A stretch of DNA of 64,000 nucleotides, from NCBI RefSeq assembly GCF_947241125.1, contig NZ_OX365700.1, positions 3,628,001 through 3,692,000 on the forward strand, given 5' to 3'. Origin of the DNA: Nitrospira tepida. Lineage in GTDB: Bacteria; Nitrospirota; Nitrospiria; Nitrospirales; Nitrospiraceae. Positions 984 to 6,547 of this stretch are shown one piece after another (position 1 is the first letter of the stretch; every line of letters starts with the position of its first letter). The notes beneath the pieces are model-generated. The model ran no database searches, was not told the DNA's origin, and saw nothing but the letters and a program-made list of their open reading frames with translations. The position numbers and the translations under genes are program-made.

Positions 984-3900
984 TCATCGTCCCTCGTATC
1001 CCCGGCAACTCCGTCCGTTGCGCAGGAAAGGCGGCTCTCGCAGCCGGCCCAGCGGCTGCAGTTCTTCGATCGTCAAGGTCGCGACGCCGAACTGCTCCTC
1101 GACGACCCCGAACAATACATAGGGACGGTTGGGGAACAGCAGATGGCAACAGCGGCGGTACACCTTGGGAAACAGCGTGGCGTCATAGAGCGCCGTCTGA
1201 TCCTCGAACGTGGCAAACTCCATCGGCAGCCCGTCTTTGGTCTCGGCGAATTTTTCGGTGATCAGGCAACCCAGCATCCTCACGCGCCGCCCGGCATAGC
1301 GGGCCATCGCCGAACCGGGGATTGCGCCCAGCCGCTCGCCCTGCTCGCGATAGGGATCCAACGGATGCCTGCTTATGGGAAACCCCAGCGTCTCAACCTC
1401 ATGCGCCGCCTTCCGCGCCGGAGCGTACTCTTCCGGAATGGGCAAGGGCGCCGCGCCCGAGCCGTCCGCGTATAACCGCCACAACAAGGCGGGGCGCGTC
1501 AGTTCCCCGGCCAGAGAATCGCAGCAGCCGGCCCGGATCAACGCCCGCGCCTCGCCCTGCTCCGGCTTCACCCGGGAGAGGAACTCCTGGAAGGACCGGA
1601 ATGAGCCGCCGCTCGCCCGCTCCGCCACGATCCGTCGTCCCGTCGCCTCGGCCAGTGTCTTGACCTGCATCAACCCGATCCGGATCGTGCGTCCCAGGCC
1701 GGTATAGGCCCAATCGCTGGCGTTCACGTCCGGCGGCAGCACCGTCAGGCCCATTCGCCTGGCCTCCGAGAGGTATGCATAGGTGGAATAGAACCCGCCC
1801 TGATTGCTGATGACGGCCGCCATGAACTCGGCGGGATAATGCACGCGCAAGTAGGCCGACTTGAACGAGACCTGCGCGTAGCTGGCCGAATGGGGCTTGC
1901 AAAAGCTATAGCCCGCGAAGCTCATGATCATGCTCCAGAGCGCCGCGATCGTTTGGGCCGGCAGGCCGTTTCGCTCCGCGCCCGCGCAAAACTGCATGTA
2001 GTAGTCGTGGAGCTGTTTCTGCTTGTGTTTCTTGCTCAGGACCTTGCGAAGCTGGTCGGCGTCCTCGACCGAAAAATCCGCGACCGCCATCGCGACTTTC
2101 GTCACGTCTTCCTGATAGACCATGATGCCGTAGGTCTCGTCCAGGATGGATCCGAGCCGCGGATGCCAGGGCCGGTAAGACGCCCCCTGCGCGCGCCGGA
2201 TGAACGCTTCGATGAACGGATTCGCCGCCGGCCGCACGAGCGAAGAGACGATCACCAAATTGTCGAACACGTCGAGCTGCGCCAATCTAGAAGCGGGCAT
2301 GCCGCCCCAGAGTTTTCTCAACAAGAGCCTGGTCGCGGGCGATTCGATGTAAAAACAGCCGATCGTGTCGCCCCGTCGAATTGCCTCTTGCGTGGCGGCG
2401 TCCTGCAGCGGATCCCACGCCGCCTCGTCGATCGTGCGGCCGTGGTGCCTTTCAATCGATGCCAGCGCGTCACGGATGACCGCCAGCGAGCGGTTCCCCA
2501 ACAGGTCGATCTTGACCAGCCCGGCATCTTCCGTCTGGTCTTTTTCCCATTGGATGACCGGCACCCCTTTGGCCGCGATCTCCACCGGCACATATCGGCG
2601 GATGTCGTCCGGCACGATGACGATCCCGCCGCAATGCACCGACAGGTGCCGGAGATGCCCCTGGACCTGCCCCGCCAGCCGGAGAATCTCCGGCCAGGGG
2701 GGAGCGAGCCGCAGGTCCCGGCTGAGACGAGCCGTCCAATCCCGATCTTCGTCTCCGGCGGCCGCCCGATCCTCGGCATCGAGCACATCCTTTCGGCGCG
2801 ATACCAGCGAGGACACCCGTGTGATCTCCTCGGCCGGCATGCCGTAGACCTTCGCCACCTCGCGCAGCGACGCTCGCCATCCGAGCGTATTCTGGTTCGC
2901 GACCATCGCGGCCTGCCTGGCCCCGTATCGCTCGAACACCCCCTTCACGATAGGGTCGCGCTCATCCCAGGGAAAATCGATGTCGATGTCCGGCGGATCC
3001 CGGCGGCCCGGATTCAAGAACCGCTCGAAAAAGAGATTGTGCCGGATCGGATCCACGTGCGTGATCTGCAGACAGTATGAGACGATCGACGCCGCAACCG
3101 AGCCGCGCCCGCAGGTACGCGCCGCTTGCCTGACGATCTCTTCCACGATGAGAAAGTAATGCGAGAAACCCTTCCGCCGAATGATGTCGAGTTCCTTTTC
3201 GATGCGGGCGCGGACCTCGGAAGACAGCAGGCCGCCGTACCGGAGGCGCGCCCCGTCGTAGGTCTTCCGGCGCAACAGGGCGCAGGCCTCGTCATCCGAC
3301 AGAGAGCGAAACGTCGGGAAGATCGTGTCGCGGAAGGCCCAATCGCCATGACAGGCCTCAGCGATGCGCCGGCTGTTTTCCAACGCCTCGGGCACGTGCG
3401 GGAAGTGCCGGGCCATCGCCGCCGGCGGCATGAGCCACTGCGTCGGCGCGCAACAGGCGTCCGGCGCCAGTCGCGAAAGCGTGGTATTCAACGCGATGGC
3501 GCGCAACAGGCGATGCACGGCAAACTCCTCCGGCCTCACACAATACACCCGGTTCGTCGCGACCGGGAGAAGACCCAGGCGGCGGCTCACGAGCAGCGCC
3601 TGATGCATCCTGTGGCCCGGCGTCAGCTCAACATAGAGGTCCTCACAGGATTGCTCGGCCCAGGAAGTCAACACCTGCTCATGATCGGTCAGCAGGATCA
3701 GGCCGGTCCGGCGGGCGGCCACCGCCGCAATGAAATCAAACGACGGATCGCAATGGCGATCGGAGAGCAACCGGCAGAGGTTGGCGTAGCCCTCCGGCGT
3801 CTTCGCCAAGAGCACCGCCCGATGTTCGGCCGTCGTCAGTTCTGCGCCGAGGATCGGCCGCAGCCCCGCCTGGCTGGCCACTTCGATAAACCGCACGGCT

Positions 3901-4040
3901 CCATACAGCCCGTTGGTATCGGTCAGCGCCAGCATGTCCGCCCCCTGGGCGCGGGCCGCTCGGCAGAGCTCGGTGACCGGCGCGACCCCCAGCATGGGCG
4001 AATAGTCCGAATGCACGTGCAGATGAACGAACTCGGCCAC
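984..4040 (-). CDS. dnaE2: Error-prone DNA polymerase DnaE2 (ImuC)
   Basis: The 1018-aa protein opens with a PHP domain (HLHVHSDYS near residue 7, LALTDTNGLYG), then a C-family polymerase palm with the catalytic acidic motif PDIDIDF near residue 350, a helix-hairpin region and a C-terminal OB-fold region. The length is close to the ~1030-1080 aa usual for DnaE2 and shorter than replicative DnaE. It acts in translesion synthesis and damage-induced mutagenesis. It lies 56 bp downstream of an ImuB-like gene on the same strand, the classic order imuB-dnaE2. No imuA or lexA copy is present in the window. Regulation is probably through the palindrome at 5323-5343. Confidence 0.9.
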   Translation of the reverse strand: MAEFVHLHVHSDYSPMLGVAPVTELCRAARAQGADMLALTDTNGLYGAVRFIEVASQAGLRPILGAELTTAEHRAVLLAKTPEGYANLCRLLSDRHCDPSFDFIAAVAARRTGLILLTDHEQVLTSWAEQSCEDLYVELTPGHRMHQALLVSRRLGLLPVATNRVYCVRPEEFAVHRLLRAIALNTTLSRLAPDACCAPTQWLMPPAAMARHFPHVPEALENSRRIAEACHGDWAFRDTIFPTFRSLSDDEACALLRRKTYDGARLRYGGLLSSEVRARIEKELDIIRRKGFSHYFLIVEEIVRQAARTCGRGSVAASIVSYCLQITHVDPIRHNLFFERFLNPGRRDPPDIDIDFPWDERDPIVKGVFERYGARQAAMVANQNTLGWRASLREVAKVYGMPAEEITRVSSLVSRRKDVLDAEDRAAAGDEDRDWTARLSRDLRLAPPWPEILRLAGQVQGHLRHLSVHCGGIVIVPDDIRRYVPVEIAAKGVPVIQWEKDQTEDAGLVKIDLLGNRSLAVIRDALASIERHHGRTIDEAAWDPLQDAATQEAIRRGDTIGCFYIESPATRLLLRKLWGGMPASRLAQLDVFDNLVIVSSLVRPAANPFIEAFIRRAQGASYRPWHPRLGSILDETYGIMVYQEDVTKVAMAVADFSVEDADQLRKVLSKKHKQKQLHDYYMQFCAGAERNGLPAQTIAALWSMIMSFAGYSFCKPHSASYAQVSFKSAYLRVHYPAEFMAAVISNQGGFYSTYAYLSEARRMGLTVLPPDVNASDWAYTGLGRTIRIGLMQVKTLAEATGRRIVAERASGGSFRSFQEFLSRVKPEQGEARALIRAGCCDSLAGELTRPALLWRLYADGSGAAPLPIPEEYAPARKAAHEVETLGFPISRHPLDPYREQGERLGAIPGSAMARYAGRRVRMLGCLITEKFAETKDGLPMEFATFEDQTALYDATLFPKVYRRCCHLLFPNRPYVLFGVVEEQFGVATLTIEELQPLGRLREPPFLRNGRSCRGYEGR

Positions 4041-4096: not shown

Positions 4097-5281
4097 TCAC
4101 GTCGTGCGGCCCCACCAAATCGCCCGTTCGCCGAACCGGTCGCGAAGTACATCGAGCGCCGCGCAGAGCCGTTGCCACCTTATCCGCTGCGCGGCCTCCG
4201 AGATCGGCTCATGATCGAACAGTGCCAGTTGCTCCGCCGGCGGCCCCACCTGCTCCGCTCGCAGAATGATCCGTTGCACCCGCACCCGCCGGCGCACGCA
4301 CCGGAAAAACAGTGTCGTAAGGATTGGAAGCAGGTCCATTTCCCAGCAGGTCCCCTCCACCGTCCGATCGGCACGGACCTCCTGCTGATCGCAATACCGC
4401 ACGATCAGCGCCAGATGCCGGCAGACCCGCTGCTGCCGGCGCAACCTCCGGCACAGGTATTCAATGCCTGCGCAACAACGTCCCAACAGAACCTGGTCAT
4501 CGATCTGTTCCGGATCCAGCGTACAGGACCACTCAAGAGCCGGTTGCGTGGCCGGCGGATGCACCGGCGACAGGTCGATCCCCTGCGCCCACTCATACAG
4601 GAGCCTGGCGGCCGGCCCCATAACACCTTCCATCGCCGACAACGACACCTCGGCAATGGCGCCCAATGTGCGCAGGTTCAAGTCATCCAAGAGGGCGAGC
4701 ACCCGGGAGGCATGGAGGCGACGCAAGCCAGGCAGTAGGTCGGGCGAGAGCGGCGCCAGGAACGCCCGTTCCATATGGGGCTCGACGTGACGGAGCTGCG
4801 GCGGCCGTTCCAGCGTCGTGGCCGCGAGGTGCGCCACGAGCTTGCTCGAGCCGATTCCGATCACGCCGGCAAGATTGTGACGGCGCATCATTTCCCGCTC
4901 AAGGCGGGCACCAGCGTCCACCGCCGGACCATGGAGGCGGGCCGTGCCGGTCAAATCCAGGAACCACGACCCGGGCCGGACCGGTTCCCACAGAGGCGTC
5001 AAGTCAGCCAGGAGTCGTTGCAACTTTTCGTGCGCCACACGCACACGAAAGGGATGCGGCAGCACAATCCGCAGCGAGGGACAGAAGTGCCGCGCGAGAT
5101 CGGCCGGCATACCCGGCGACAGGCCCTCGGCGAACGCTTCATGAGACACTTCGCACAACCTGGCGCGCGGCGTATGCACGGAGACCAAGGCGACGGGCCG
5201 GCCGTTTAGCGACGCATCGTCCGCTCGCGCCAGCGCAATGCCGAACGAGGGCACGTGAAAACGCAGGATCTGCCGTTCCAT
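4097..5281 (-). CDS. imuB: ImuB-like inactive Y-family polymerase homologue
   Basis: This 394-aa protein is related to the Y-family (DinB/UmuC) fold, with the N-terminal palm, an HhH region (LRTLGAIAEVSLSAMEGVMG, residues ~220-245) and a little-finger-like C-terminus. The usual metal-binding motifs are missing: the N-terminus reads ILRFHVPSFGIALA where active enzymes have a DxDxF motif, and SWFLDLTGTARL stands where SxDE is expected. That is the pattern of ImuB, which acts as a beta-clamp-binding adaptor for DnaE2. The immediate downstream dnaE2 supports this. It is shorter than many ImuB proteins (~500 aa), so the C-terminal ImuA-binding part may be reduced; no imuA is seen nearby. Confidence 0.8.
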   Translation of the reverse strand: MERQILRFHVPSFGIALARADDASLNGRPVALVSVHTPRARLCEVSHEAFAEGLSPGMPADLARHFCPSLRIVLPHPFRVRVAHEKLQRLLADLTPLWEPVRPGSWFLDLTGTARLHGPAVDAGARLEREMMRRHNLAGVIGIGSSKLVAHLAATTLERPPQLRHVEPHMERAFLAPLSPDLLPGLRRLHASRVLALLDDLNLRTLGAIAEVSLSAMEGVMGPAARLLYEWAQGIDLSPVHPPATQPALEWSCTLDPEQIDDQVLLGRCCAGIEYLCRRLRRQQRVCRHLALIVRYCDQQEVRADRTVEGTCWEMDLLPILTTLFFRCVRRRVRVQRIILRAEQVGPPAEQLALFDHEPISEAAQRIRWQRLCAALDVLRDRFGERAIWWGRTT

Positions 5282-5322: not shown

Positions 5323-5343
5323 AATGTATCCAATGGTTACATT
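5323..5343. promoter_or_regulatory. Palindromic operator candidate upstream of imuB-dnaE2
   Basis: A 21-bp inverted repeat with arms AATGTA and TACATT and inner CCA/TGG matches itself at 9 of 10 symmetric base pairs. It lies 42 bp upstream of the imuB start, where a repressor would block transcription. In many bacteria imuB-dnaE2 operons are controlled by LexA, whose box differs between phyla, so this is a candidate damage-response (LexA-type) operator. The assignment to LexA is inference. Confidence 0.6.
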
Positions 5344-5542
5344 GCGAAGCAGCGACTGTCAAGAATGTGCACATCGCGGCTAGCCCTCAGCGAATACGTA
5401 AGGACCGCGGCACGGAAGCACGAGCACGGCCGCGCGATGCGTGCCTCGCGCATGAATCGGCAACAGAACCGCACTCGAAGAAGTCCTGAAACCGGCCTTC
5501 CCAGCTTGACTTGCCCTGCTCCCTGGCCTACTATCACGCGCC

Positions 5543-6547
5543 ATGTCGGATCAGCCGTCCATTTCCACGATCCAGACGATGGCCGATGTCTGGGACGCCT
5601 ACCGTTCCGAGCTCCAAGGCGTTGAAGAGCAGATCCAGAAAAACCTCAATTCCCCGGTCGCCCTCGTCAACACCGTCGCCGGCCATATCCTGAGCAGCGG
5701 CGGCAAACGGGTGCGTCCGTTGCTGCTCCTGCTCTGTGCCCGCCTCTGCGGCTATACCGGGGCGGATCACCACCTGCTCGGCTGTTTGGTGGAATATATC
5801 CACACCGCCACCCTGCTCCATGATGACGTGGTGGACGATGCCGACCTGCGCCGTGGGCGCCGGACAGCCCGCCGCGTCTGGGGCAATCAGATCAGCATCC
5901 TGGTCGGGGACTATCTCTATTCCAAGGCCATGCGCCAGATCGTGGATTTCCGCAGCCATATCGTGAACGAGGTGCTGGCGGACGCCTGCTGGAAAATGGC
6001 GGAGGGCGAGGTCCTTCAGTTGTATTACAACGGCAACCCCTCGATGCCCGAAGCGGACTATCTGCGGATCGTCGAGCACAAGACCGCCGGGCTCATCGCG
6101 GCCTCCTGCCGCATGGGCGCCATCATTGCAGACGCCTCCCCGGCCCAACAGACGGCCCTGTTCCGGTTCGGCCAACACCTGGGCATTGCCTTTCAGGTGG
6201 CGGACGACACGCTGGACTATACGGCCAATGGGGACTGTCTAGGCAAGGCGCTCGGACAGGACCTGCGGCAAGGCAAGGCCACGCTGCCGTTGCTGCATCT
6301 GTTGGGGCACTGTTCCGAATCCGACAAGAGCATGATCAAAGATCGCATGGAGACGCGCTCCCTGACGGACCAGGACCTCACTCGCATCATTGGGCTCATG
6401 CGCCAGTACGGCTCGATTGTCTACGCGGTGGATCGGGCCCGTCGTTTCGTGGACGCCGCCATCGCCGACCTCGACCAATTTGAAGACGGCACCCCCAAGC
6501 GCGCGCTGATGGTTGCGGCCGAGTACATGGTGACGCGCGACCGGTAA
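5543..6547 (+). CDS. Trans-polyprenyl diphosphate synthase (IspA/IspB family)
   Basis: The 334-aa protein carries both aspartate-rich motifs of the family: DDVVDDADLRRG near residue 95 and DDTLDY near residue 220. These bind Mg-diphosphate of the allylic substrate and isopentenyl diphosphate. SSGGKRVRPLLLLL near residue 55 is the conserved N-terminal segment. It condenses isopentenyl diphosphate units to a long-chain polyprenyl diphosphate, probably for the quinone side chain (octaprenyl/heptaprenyl type). Small residues before the first motif suggest a long-chain product, but chain length cannot be read with certainty. Confidence 0.88.
   Translation: MSDQPSISTIQTMADVWDAYRSELQGVEEQIQKNLNSPVALVNTVAGHILSSGGKRVRPLLLLLCARLCGYTGADHHLLGCLVEYIHTATLLHDDVVDDADLRRGRRTARRVWGNQISILVGDYLYSKAMRQIVDFRSHIVNEVLADACWKMAEGEVLQLYYNGNPSMPEADYLRIVEHKTAGLIAASCRMGAIIADASPAQQTALFRFGQHLGIAFQVADDTLDYTANGDCLGKALGQDLRQGKATLPLLHLLGHCSESDKSMIKDRMETRSLTDQDLTRIIGLMRQYGSIVYAVDRARRFVDAAIADLDQFEDGTPKRALMVAAEYMVTRDR

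Follow-up and report, generated by a model that had tools for sequence, protein, structure and literature searches.

A palindromic operator shared by the imuB-dnaE2 cassette and a distant XRE-S24 regulator gene in Nitrospira: a candidate LexA-independent mutasome switch

The imuB-dnaE2 cassette and its upstream palindrome

In the window (the whole stretch of 64,000 nucleotides of Nitrospira tepida DNA analyzed here), an imuB-like gene and dnaE2 form a minus-strand cassette, and the 261-bp gap between imuB and a divergent polyprenyl synthetase gene contains a near-perfect 21-bp palindrome (Table 1). The initial annotation gave its sequence, coordinates, and pairing exactly, the single mismatch being a T-T at positions 7/15, and was right about its close spacing to imuB, although the distance to the start codon on the minus strand is 41 bp rather than 42 bp. 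A bare 21-bp palindrome is unexceptional by symmetry alone, as three of such quality occur in the window, where Markov simulations predict ~4, and the chance of finding one within the 261-bp gap is ~0.013. It is comparison that lifts this element far beyond chance: the palindrome is regarded as real because its core recurs before a regulator gene and is conserved at orthologous promoters (see below). The AATGTA-N9-TACATT pattern is unique in the 4,731,961-base single-contig genome, and exactly two identical copies of the core TGTAACCATTGGATACA exist in these 4.73 Mb, one at imuB-dnaE2 and one at the distant regulator gene. Genome-wide, no other core site was found with up to two mismatches to the consensus, and a reversed control pattern gave 0 matches.

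Table 1. Location of the features discussed in the text (C1, contig of the window's genome; other positions refer to the window or, for L numbers, to loci of related genomes)
Feature	Position	Strand	Remarks
Operator palindrome (21 bp), AATGTATCCAATGGTTACATT	5323-5343	minus	Pairing at 9/10 symmetric positions
Conserved core (17 bp), TGTAACCATTGGATACA	5325-5341	minus	Inside the 21-bp palindrome
TTGACA -35 element	5357-5362	minus	15 bp upstream of the core
imuB-like gene (iPolY)	4097-5281	minus	Dead Y-family polymerase, QLALF clamp motif, RecA-NT-like tail, no ImuB-C
dnaE2	984-4040	minus	Error-prone C-family polymerase, second gene of the cassette
Polyprenyl synthetase gene	5543-6547	plus	Divergent
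Second core copy	C1:2036549-2036565		1 bp before the start codon of the regulator gene
Regulator gene (180 aa)	C1:2036567-2037106		XRE/HTH_3 N-domain and LexA-type S24 C-domain; 1.6 Mb from imuB-dnaE2
Small clamp-motif gene (relatives)	L067-L074, L147-L162, e.g., L071 2093-2446		Operator at the start codon in at least 8 cases

The ImuB-like protein has lost the catalytic Asp and Asp-Glu positions found in the genome's own DinB. Its C-terminus, RLCAALDVLRDRFGERAIWWGRTT, carries a tail pattern (RLxxALDxxRxRFGExAIxWG) that is kept in relatives and fits the RecA-NT motif, the pairwise match of this tail to the genome's own RecA being weak when taken alone (shuffle 0.07). The ImuB-C domain is absent from this protein and its relatives, whose chains end a few residues past the RecA-NT motif. 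Judging from these features, a Y-family polymerase that is inactive and has no ImuB-C domain is a better description than "ImuB". As the initial annotation had pointed out, the cassette lacks ImuA, and no ImuA scores above the cut-off in this genome or in any of the 98 genomes surveyed; the main weak matches (up to ~50 bits) resemble RecA itself, and that of the window's genome was confirmed by sequence to be RecA. The lack of ImuA is attributable to the missing ImuB-C domain, and ImuA was probably never part of such cassettes, rather than lost from them.

Mutasomes composed of DnaE2, iPolY, and RecA, with RecA presumably taking the place of ImuA, have been described (PMC6511836, PMC12926913). 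Like the cassette studied here, they comprise an inactive Y-family polymerase with a RecA-NT motif, encoded in an operon with dnaE2 and without imuA; they are often accompanied by lexA (PMC6511836, PMC12926913). A word search found no mention of Nitrospira in the main texts of these papers, nor was a description of the XRE-S24 regulator or its operator found there.

The second core copy precedes a gene for an XRE-S24 regulator

The protein encoded next to the second core copy shows in profile searches an HTH_3/XRE domain (PF01381, 5.4e-8) followed by a Peptidase_S24 domain (PF00717, 1.1e-28). The LexA winged-helix domain (PF01726) is absent, the DNA-binding half being HTH_3. The NCBI lexA model scores the protein at 119.3 bits (cut-off 110.95), with the match confined to residues 45-179, and the closest solved structures are LexA C-domains. 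An AlphaFold model (mean pLDDT 85) places helices at residues 3-12, 17-24, 28-36, and 43-54, followed by an S24 fold, whose structural matches show ~40% identity to LexA and ~18% to lambda CI. The S24 half is thus LexA-like by profile, sequence, and fold. In a tree with long branches and few rows, it groups with a gamma-proteobacterial LexA (95/90), apart from the phage repressors sampled; the protein may be either a LexA with an exchanged DNA-binding half or of phage origin. The residues for self-cleavage (A66-G67, S100, and K137) are invariant across 17 diverse regulators. By its domain make-up, the regulator differs from canonical LexA as a fusion of an XRE/CI-type HTH to a LexA-type protease, and automatic annotation would label it LexA, masking the changed DNA-binding domain.

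An intact canonical LexA was not found in the genome, in which the sole PF01726 match is a remnant at C1:430104. This winged-helix remnant (L002 1500-1760) contains an in-frame TAG and has no protease domain. Most of the 98 genomes of the family likewise have either no canonical LexA or a decayed one. Five genomes (G008, G018, G030, G038, and G043) encode a LexA of full length and strong score, yet have neither the box nor the XRE-S24 regulator. A second S24 protein of the window's genome (L284 1189-1851, C1:2842151) was rejected as the binder of the palindrome, given that no such box lies near its gene (best match, 6 mismatches) and that its N-domain and HTH are different; it also shows an apparent Lys-to-Arg change at the catalytic position.

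The box is conserved across the family and confined to few genes

The survey covered 98 genomes from the GTDB family to which the window's genome belongs; among them, this genome is the sole representative of its genus. The box, allowing up to one mismatch, is present in 70/98 genomes with one to three sites each, and the reversed control pattern yielded a single match in the 98 genomes. All 93 distinct sites listed are gene-adjacent. As assigned by eye against gene coordinates, the regulator accounts for 70 of them, the imuB-like gene for 15, and a small gene encoding a clamp-motif protein for 8. The cassette occurs in two arrangements, stand-alone or regulator-linked. At 15 loci, including that of the window, imuB-dnaE2 stands alone and TGTAACCATTGGWTACA or a close variant lies 12-65 bp upstream of imuB; at the remaining loci examined, an XRE-S24 gene is located directly upstream of imuB and the palindrome abuts its start codon. 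Such conservation at orthologous imuB promoters supports the initial proposal that the palindrome is the operator of imuB-dnaE2. dnaE2 lies downstream of imuB in nearly all loci with enough sequence (L013 ends too early to tell). In L015 (G089) dnaE2 is broken up, and in G058 an imuB-like gene is split over frames (C1:281281-282287), both being apparently extra cassette copies undergoing decay.

Rare variants recur among the operators of a single genome, examples being ATCGG in G094 and GGCTACA in G032. In G022 (L027; 99% complete) the imuB-like gene has a box decayed at one end (TGTAACCATTGGTTACG) and no regulator is detectable, which may reflect loss or an assembly gap, the two being indistinguishable. 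G052 likewise has no regulator, this genome being only 81% complete. Within the phylum, the regulator is also present in one further family of this order, again accompanied by the box, and an imuB-like gene is linked to it in 2/3 loci. A protein search of named genomes with imuB found no relative. Among the best 80 of 366 matches to the regulator, nearly all are named Nitrospira, Nitrospiraceae, Nitrospirae, or Nitrospirota, and N. moscoviensis and N. defluvii are among the carriers.

Operator half-sites covary with the regulator helix

The palindrome is situated at, or a few bases from, the regulator's own start codon in 102/106 regulators (classes of helix and operator in Table 2). Both half-sites change together with the protein helix: RRS accompanies TGTGAC, [MV][ST] accompanies TGTAAC, and KRLA accompanies TGTATC. 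Across the whole protein, the inner C/G pair (positions 7 and 11) depends most strongly on residues 43, 39, and 40, located just behind the recognition helix, with normalised mutual information of 0.87, 0.86, and 0.75, respectively, from counts uncorrected for ancestry. Operator position 4 covaries less cleanly, and some members have an asymmetric TGTTACC box under an unchanged helix. Some genomes, among them G044, encode two regulator paralogues with different helices and different operators. These ~100 natural helix-operator pairs, several of them paralogous within one genome, constitute a data set on specificity change.

Table 2. Helix motifs of the regulators and the operators found with them
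Helix motif	Operator
TTR[MV][ST]..RRIPG	TGTAACC-ATT-GGTTACA
TTRRSI..RRIPG	TGTGACC-ATT-GGTCACA
RRSI..PIP	TGTGACATTATGTCACA
KRLA	TGTATCC-ATT-GGATACA
TTRQTI..HKIPF	TGTAACGATTCGTTACA
TRQTI..PIP	TGTAACATTTTGTTACA
SRMTI..WEVP	TGTAACATTTTGTGACA

Promoter geometry and a proposed mechanism

In 102/102 regulators, the box is preceded by a hexamer resembling TTGACA at a distance of 14-16 bp (shuffled maximum 6). Such a hexamer is also found in 13/15 unlinked imuB promoters, here over a tested range of 13-16 bp (shuffled maximum 2). With this spacing, the box would cover the -10 region and the start point. A TG-extended -10 is one possible reading of TGT-AACCAT, and the regulator transcripts would be leaderless. 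Such a promoter layout is that of simple repression.

The palindrome is thus very probably the operator of a self-regulated, trans-encoded S24 repressor, the RecA-stimulated cleavage of which, upon damage, would free the promoters of imuB(iPolY)-dnaE2 and of the repressor itself. The sequence itself shows the operator, the geometry of the promoters, the architecture and catalytic residues of the regulator, and their conservation and covariation, whereas binding to the operator, repression, cleavage dependent on RecA, and the make-up of the polymerase complex are inferred. For repression and cleavage, we draw on the geometry, the residues, and the examples of HdiR, UmuDAb, Bacteroidetes LexA, and FddR (PMC8565304, PMC11332147, PMC13148647). 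In undamaged cells, a repressor dimer sitting on the -10/start region behind TTGACA would block transcription of imuB(iPolY)-dnaE2, and the identical box abutting the repressor start codon would provide autoregulation. Upon DNA damage, RecA filaments would stimulate self-cleavage of the repressor at Ala66-Gly67 by the Ser100/Lys137 dyad, both promoters would be released, and renewed expression of the repressor would reset the switch. The induced products could then assemble into an error-prone DnaE2-iPolY complex with RecA in place of ImuA.

It is unlikely that the XRE-S24 protein binds the palindrome but activates, or answers a signal other than DNA damage. The direction of control is not readable from sequence, and XRE proteins can activate, as DdiA of Myxococcus does with dnaE2 (PMC12288472), but a box over the -10/start region behind a consensus -35 occupies the classic position of repression, the cleavage residues are fully conserved, and the precedents for repression are clear.

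More improbable still is an ordinary LexA box belonging to a general SOS regulon under canonical LexA, even though the imuB-dnaE2 cassette is a classic LexA target (PMC3919608) and the regulator narrowly passes the cut-off of the NCBI lexA model. As the initial annotation had noted, the palindrome differs from known LexA boxes (the enterobacterial CTGT-type and the Gram-positive GAAC-type) and neither lexA nor imuA is found nearby, and its suggestion of a damage-response operator of this lineage is borne out as to lineage specificity. It does not extend to a general LexA/SOS box: in the genome-wide search the motif was absent from recA (best match, 6 mismatches) and from everything else except the gene of its own presumed repressor, leaving two sites in total. 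This absence from other repair promoters, together with the lack of an intact canonical LexA, refutes a general SOS box in this genome and leaves the imuB operator untouched. Moreover, the DNA-binding half of the regulator is HTH_3, and the five genomes with an intact LexA have neither box nor regulator. Given that recA here has no box and that few members of the family retain an undecayed canonical LexA, we read the palindrome as the operator of a mutasome switch that is dedicated and self-regulated, rather than as a general SOS box.

The position of the palindrome between divergent genes could also suggest an RNA hairpin or terminator, or control of the polyprenyl synthetase gene, both of which are scarcely credible, as the same box lies beside unrelated neighbours in relatives, where the gene upstream of the imuB-like gene varies, it overlaps or abuts the regulator start codon, and its half-sites change jointly with the protein helix. 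Chance symmetry without a role, which the three palindromes of the window would by themselves allow, has a negligible probability, given that the box is conserved at the promoters of 15 unlinked imuB genes and 102 regulator genes and occurs a second time in the genome.

Relation to known LexA-independent repressors

The proposed S24 repressor has several counterparts. As in CI-type S24 repressors of minimal SOS systems, it joins an XRE/CI HTH and an S24 domain in one chain, and the sequence places its operator both in the promoter of the regulator gene and at the gene of an error-prone polymerase. The non-canonical LexA of Bacteroidetes (PMC8565304) similarly replaces canonical LexA with a CI-type HTH (PF01381) and an S24 autoprotease acting on palindromic operators. 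However, that protein controls a full SOS regulon, whereas the regulator described here would control itself, the polymerase cassette and, in some relatives, a small gene. The family of the Bacteroidetes protein is described as restricted to that group (PMC8565304), and the S24 half found here is clearly LexA-like. HdiR of Streptococcaceae, a group that lacks LexA, is likewise an S24 repressor whose minimal regulon comprises its own gene and that of an error-prone polymerase, but it is of phage origin, targets umuC-type polymerases, and belongs to a different lineage (PMC8565304). UmuDAb of Acinetobacter is a LexA-independent S24 repressor of itself and of error-prone polymerases, which differs in having evolved from UmuD, in its co-repressor DdrR, and in acting on umuDC instead of dnaE2 (PMC11332147, PMC7273328, PMC8565304). 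Lastly, FddR of Francisella is an S24 repressor whose promoter contains a palindromic operator (PMC13148647). It is autoregulated and damage-induced, both of which are predicted for the regulator here, and it is a co-opted phage repressor with a GTG-N11-CAC operator and divergently transcribed targets (PMC13148647).

Although these related systems are known, the lineage, operator, and target appear to be new: no description of such a system in Nitrospira was found in the open-licence literature searched. A LexA-independent damage switch, apparently undescribed, would operate in a group central to nitrification, with a regulon consisting of a mutagenic polymerase and almost nothing else. Tentatively, and with slightly less than even confidence, we suggest that in Nitrospira-type bacteria LexA was replaced by a fusion of the LexA protease to a CI-type DNA-binding domain, and that the SOS response was cut down to one mutasome switch, which was then split into insulated paralogous repressor/operator copies, one of them also driving an undescribed clamp-binding small protein.

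Small genes associated with the box and the regulator

The third box-bearing gene encodes a ~120-aa protein. It was detected in 12 genomes, all belonging to one genus, with one further match that is marginal, and it is absent from the window's genome. Its C-terminus (QLRLFEDF or similar) is a beta-clamp motif of textbook form. Searches of Pfam, NCBIfam, PHROGs, and PDB sequences gave no match to the protein, and its predicted structure is poor (pLDDT 60). The gene also occurs in genomes without an imuB-like gene, and its product is a candidate for a new damage-induced clamp-binding factor.

Many genomes have the regulator and no imuB-like gene, and other roles of the regulator must therefore exist. 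Conserved coiled-coil (SlyX-like) ORFs lie directly 3' of stand-alone regulators (L039-L066, L034), and Cys-rich ORFs also follow them in many relatives, the window's genome having the coiled-coil ORF only. Both kinds of small genes probably share the operon of the regulator.
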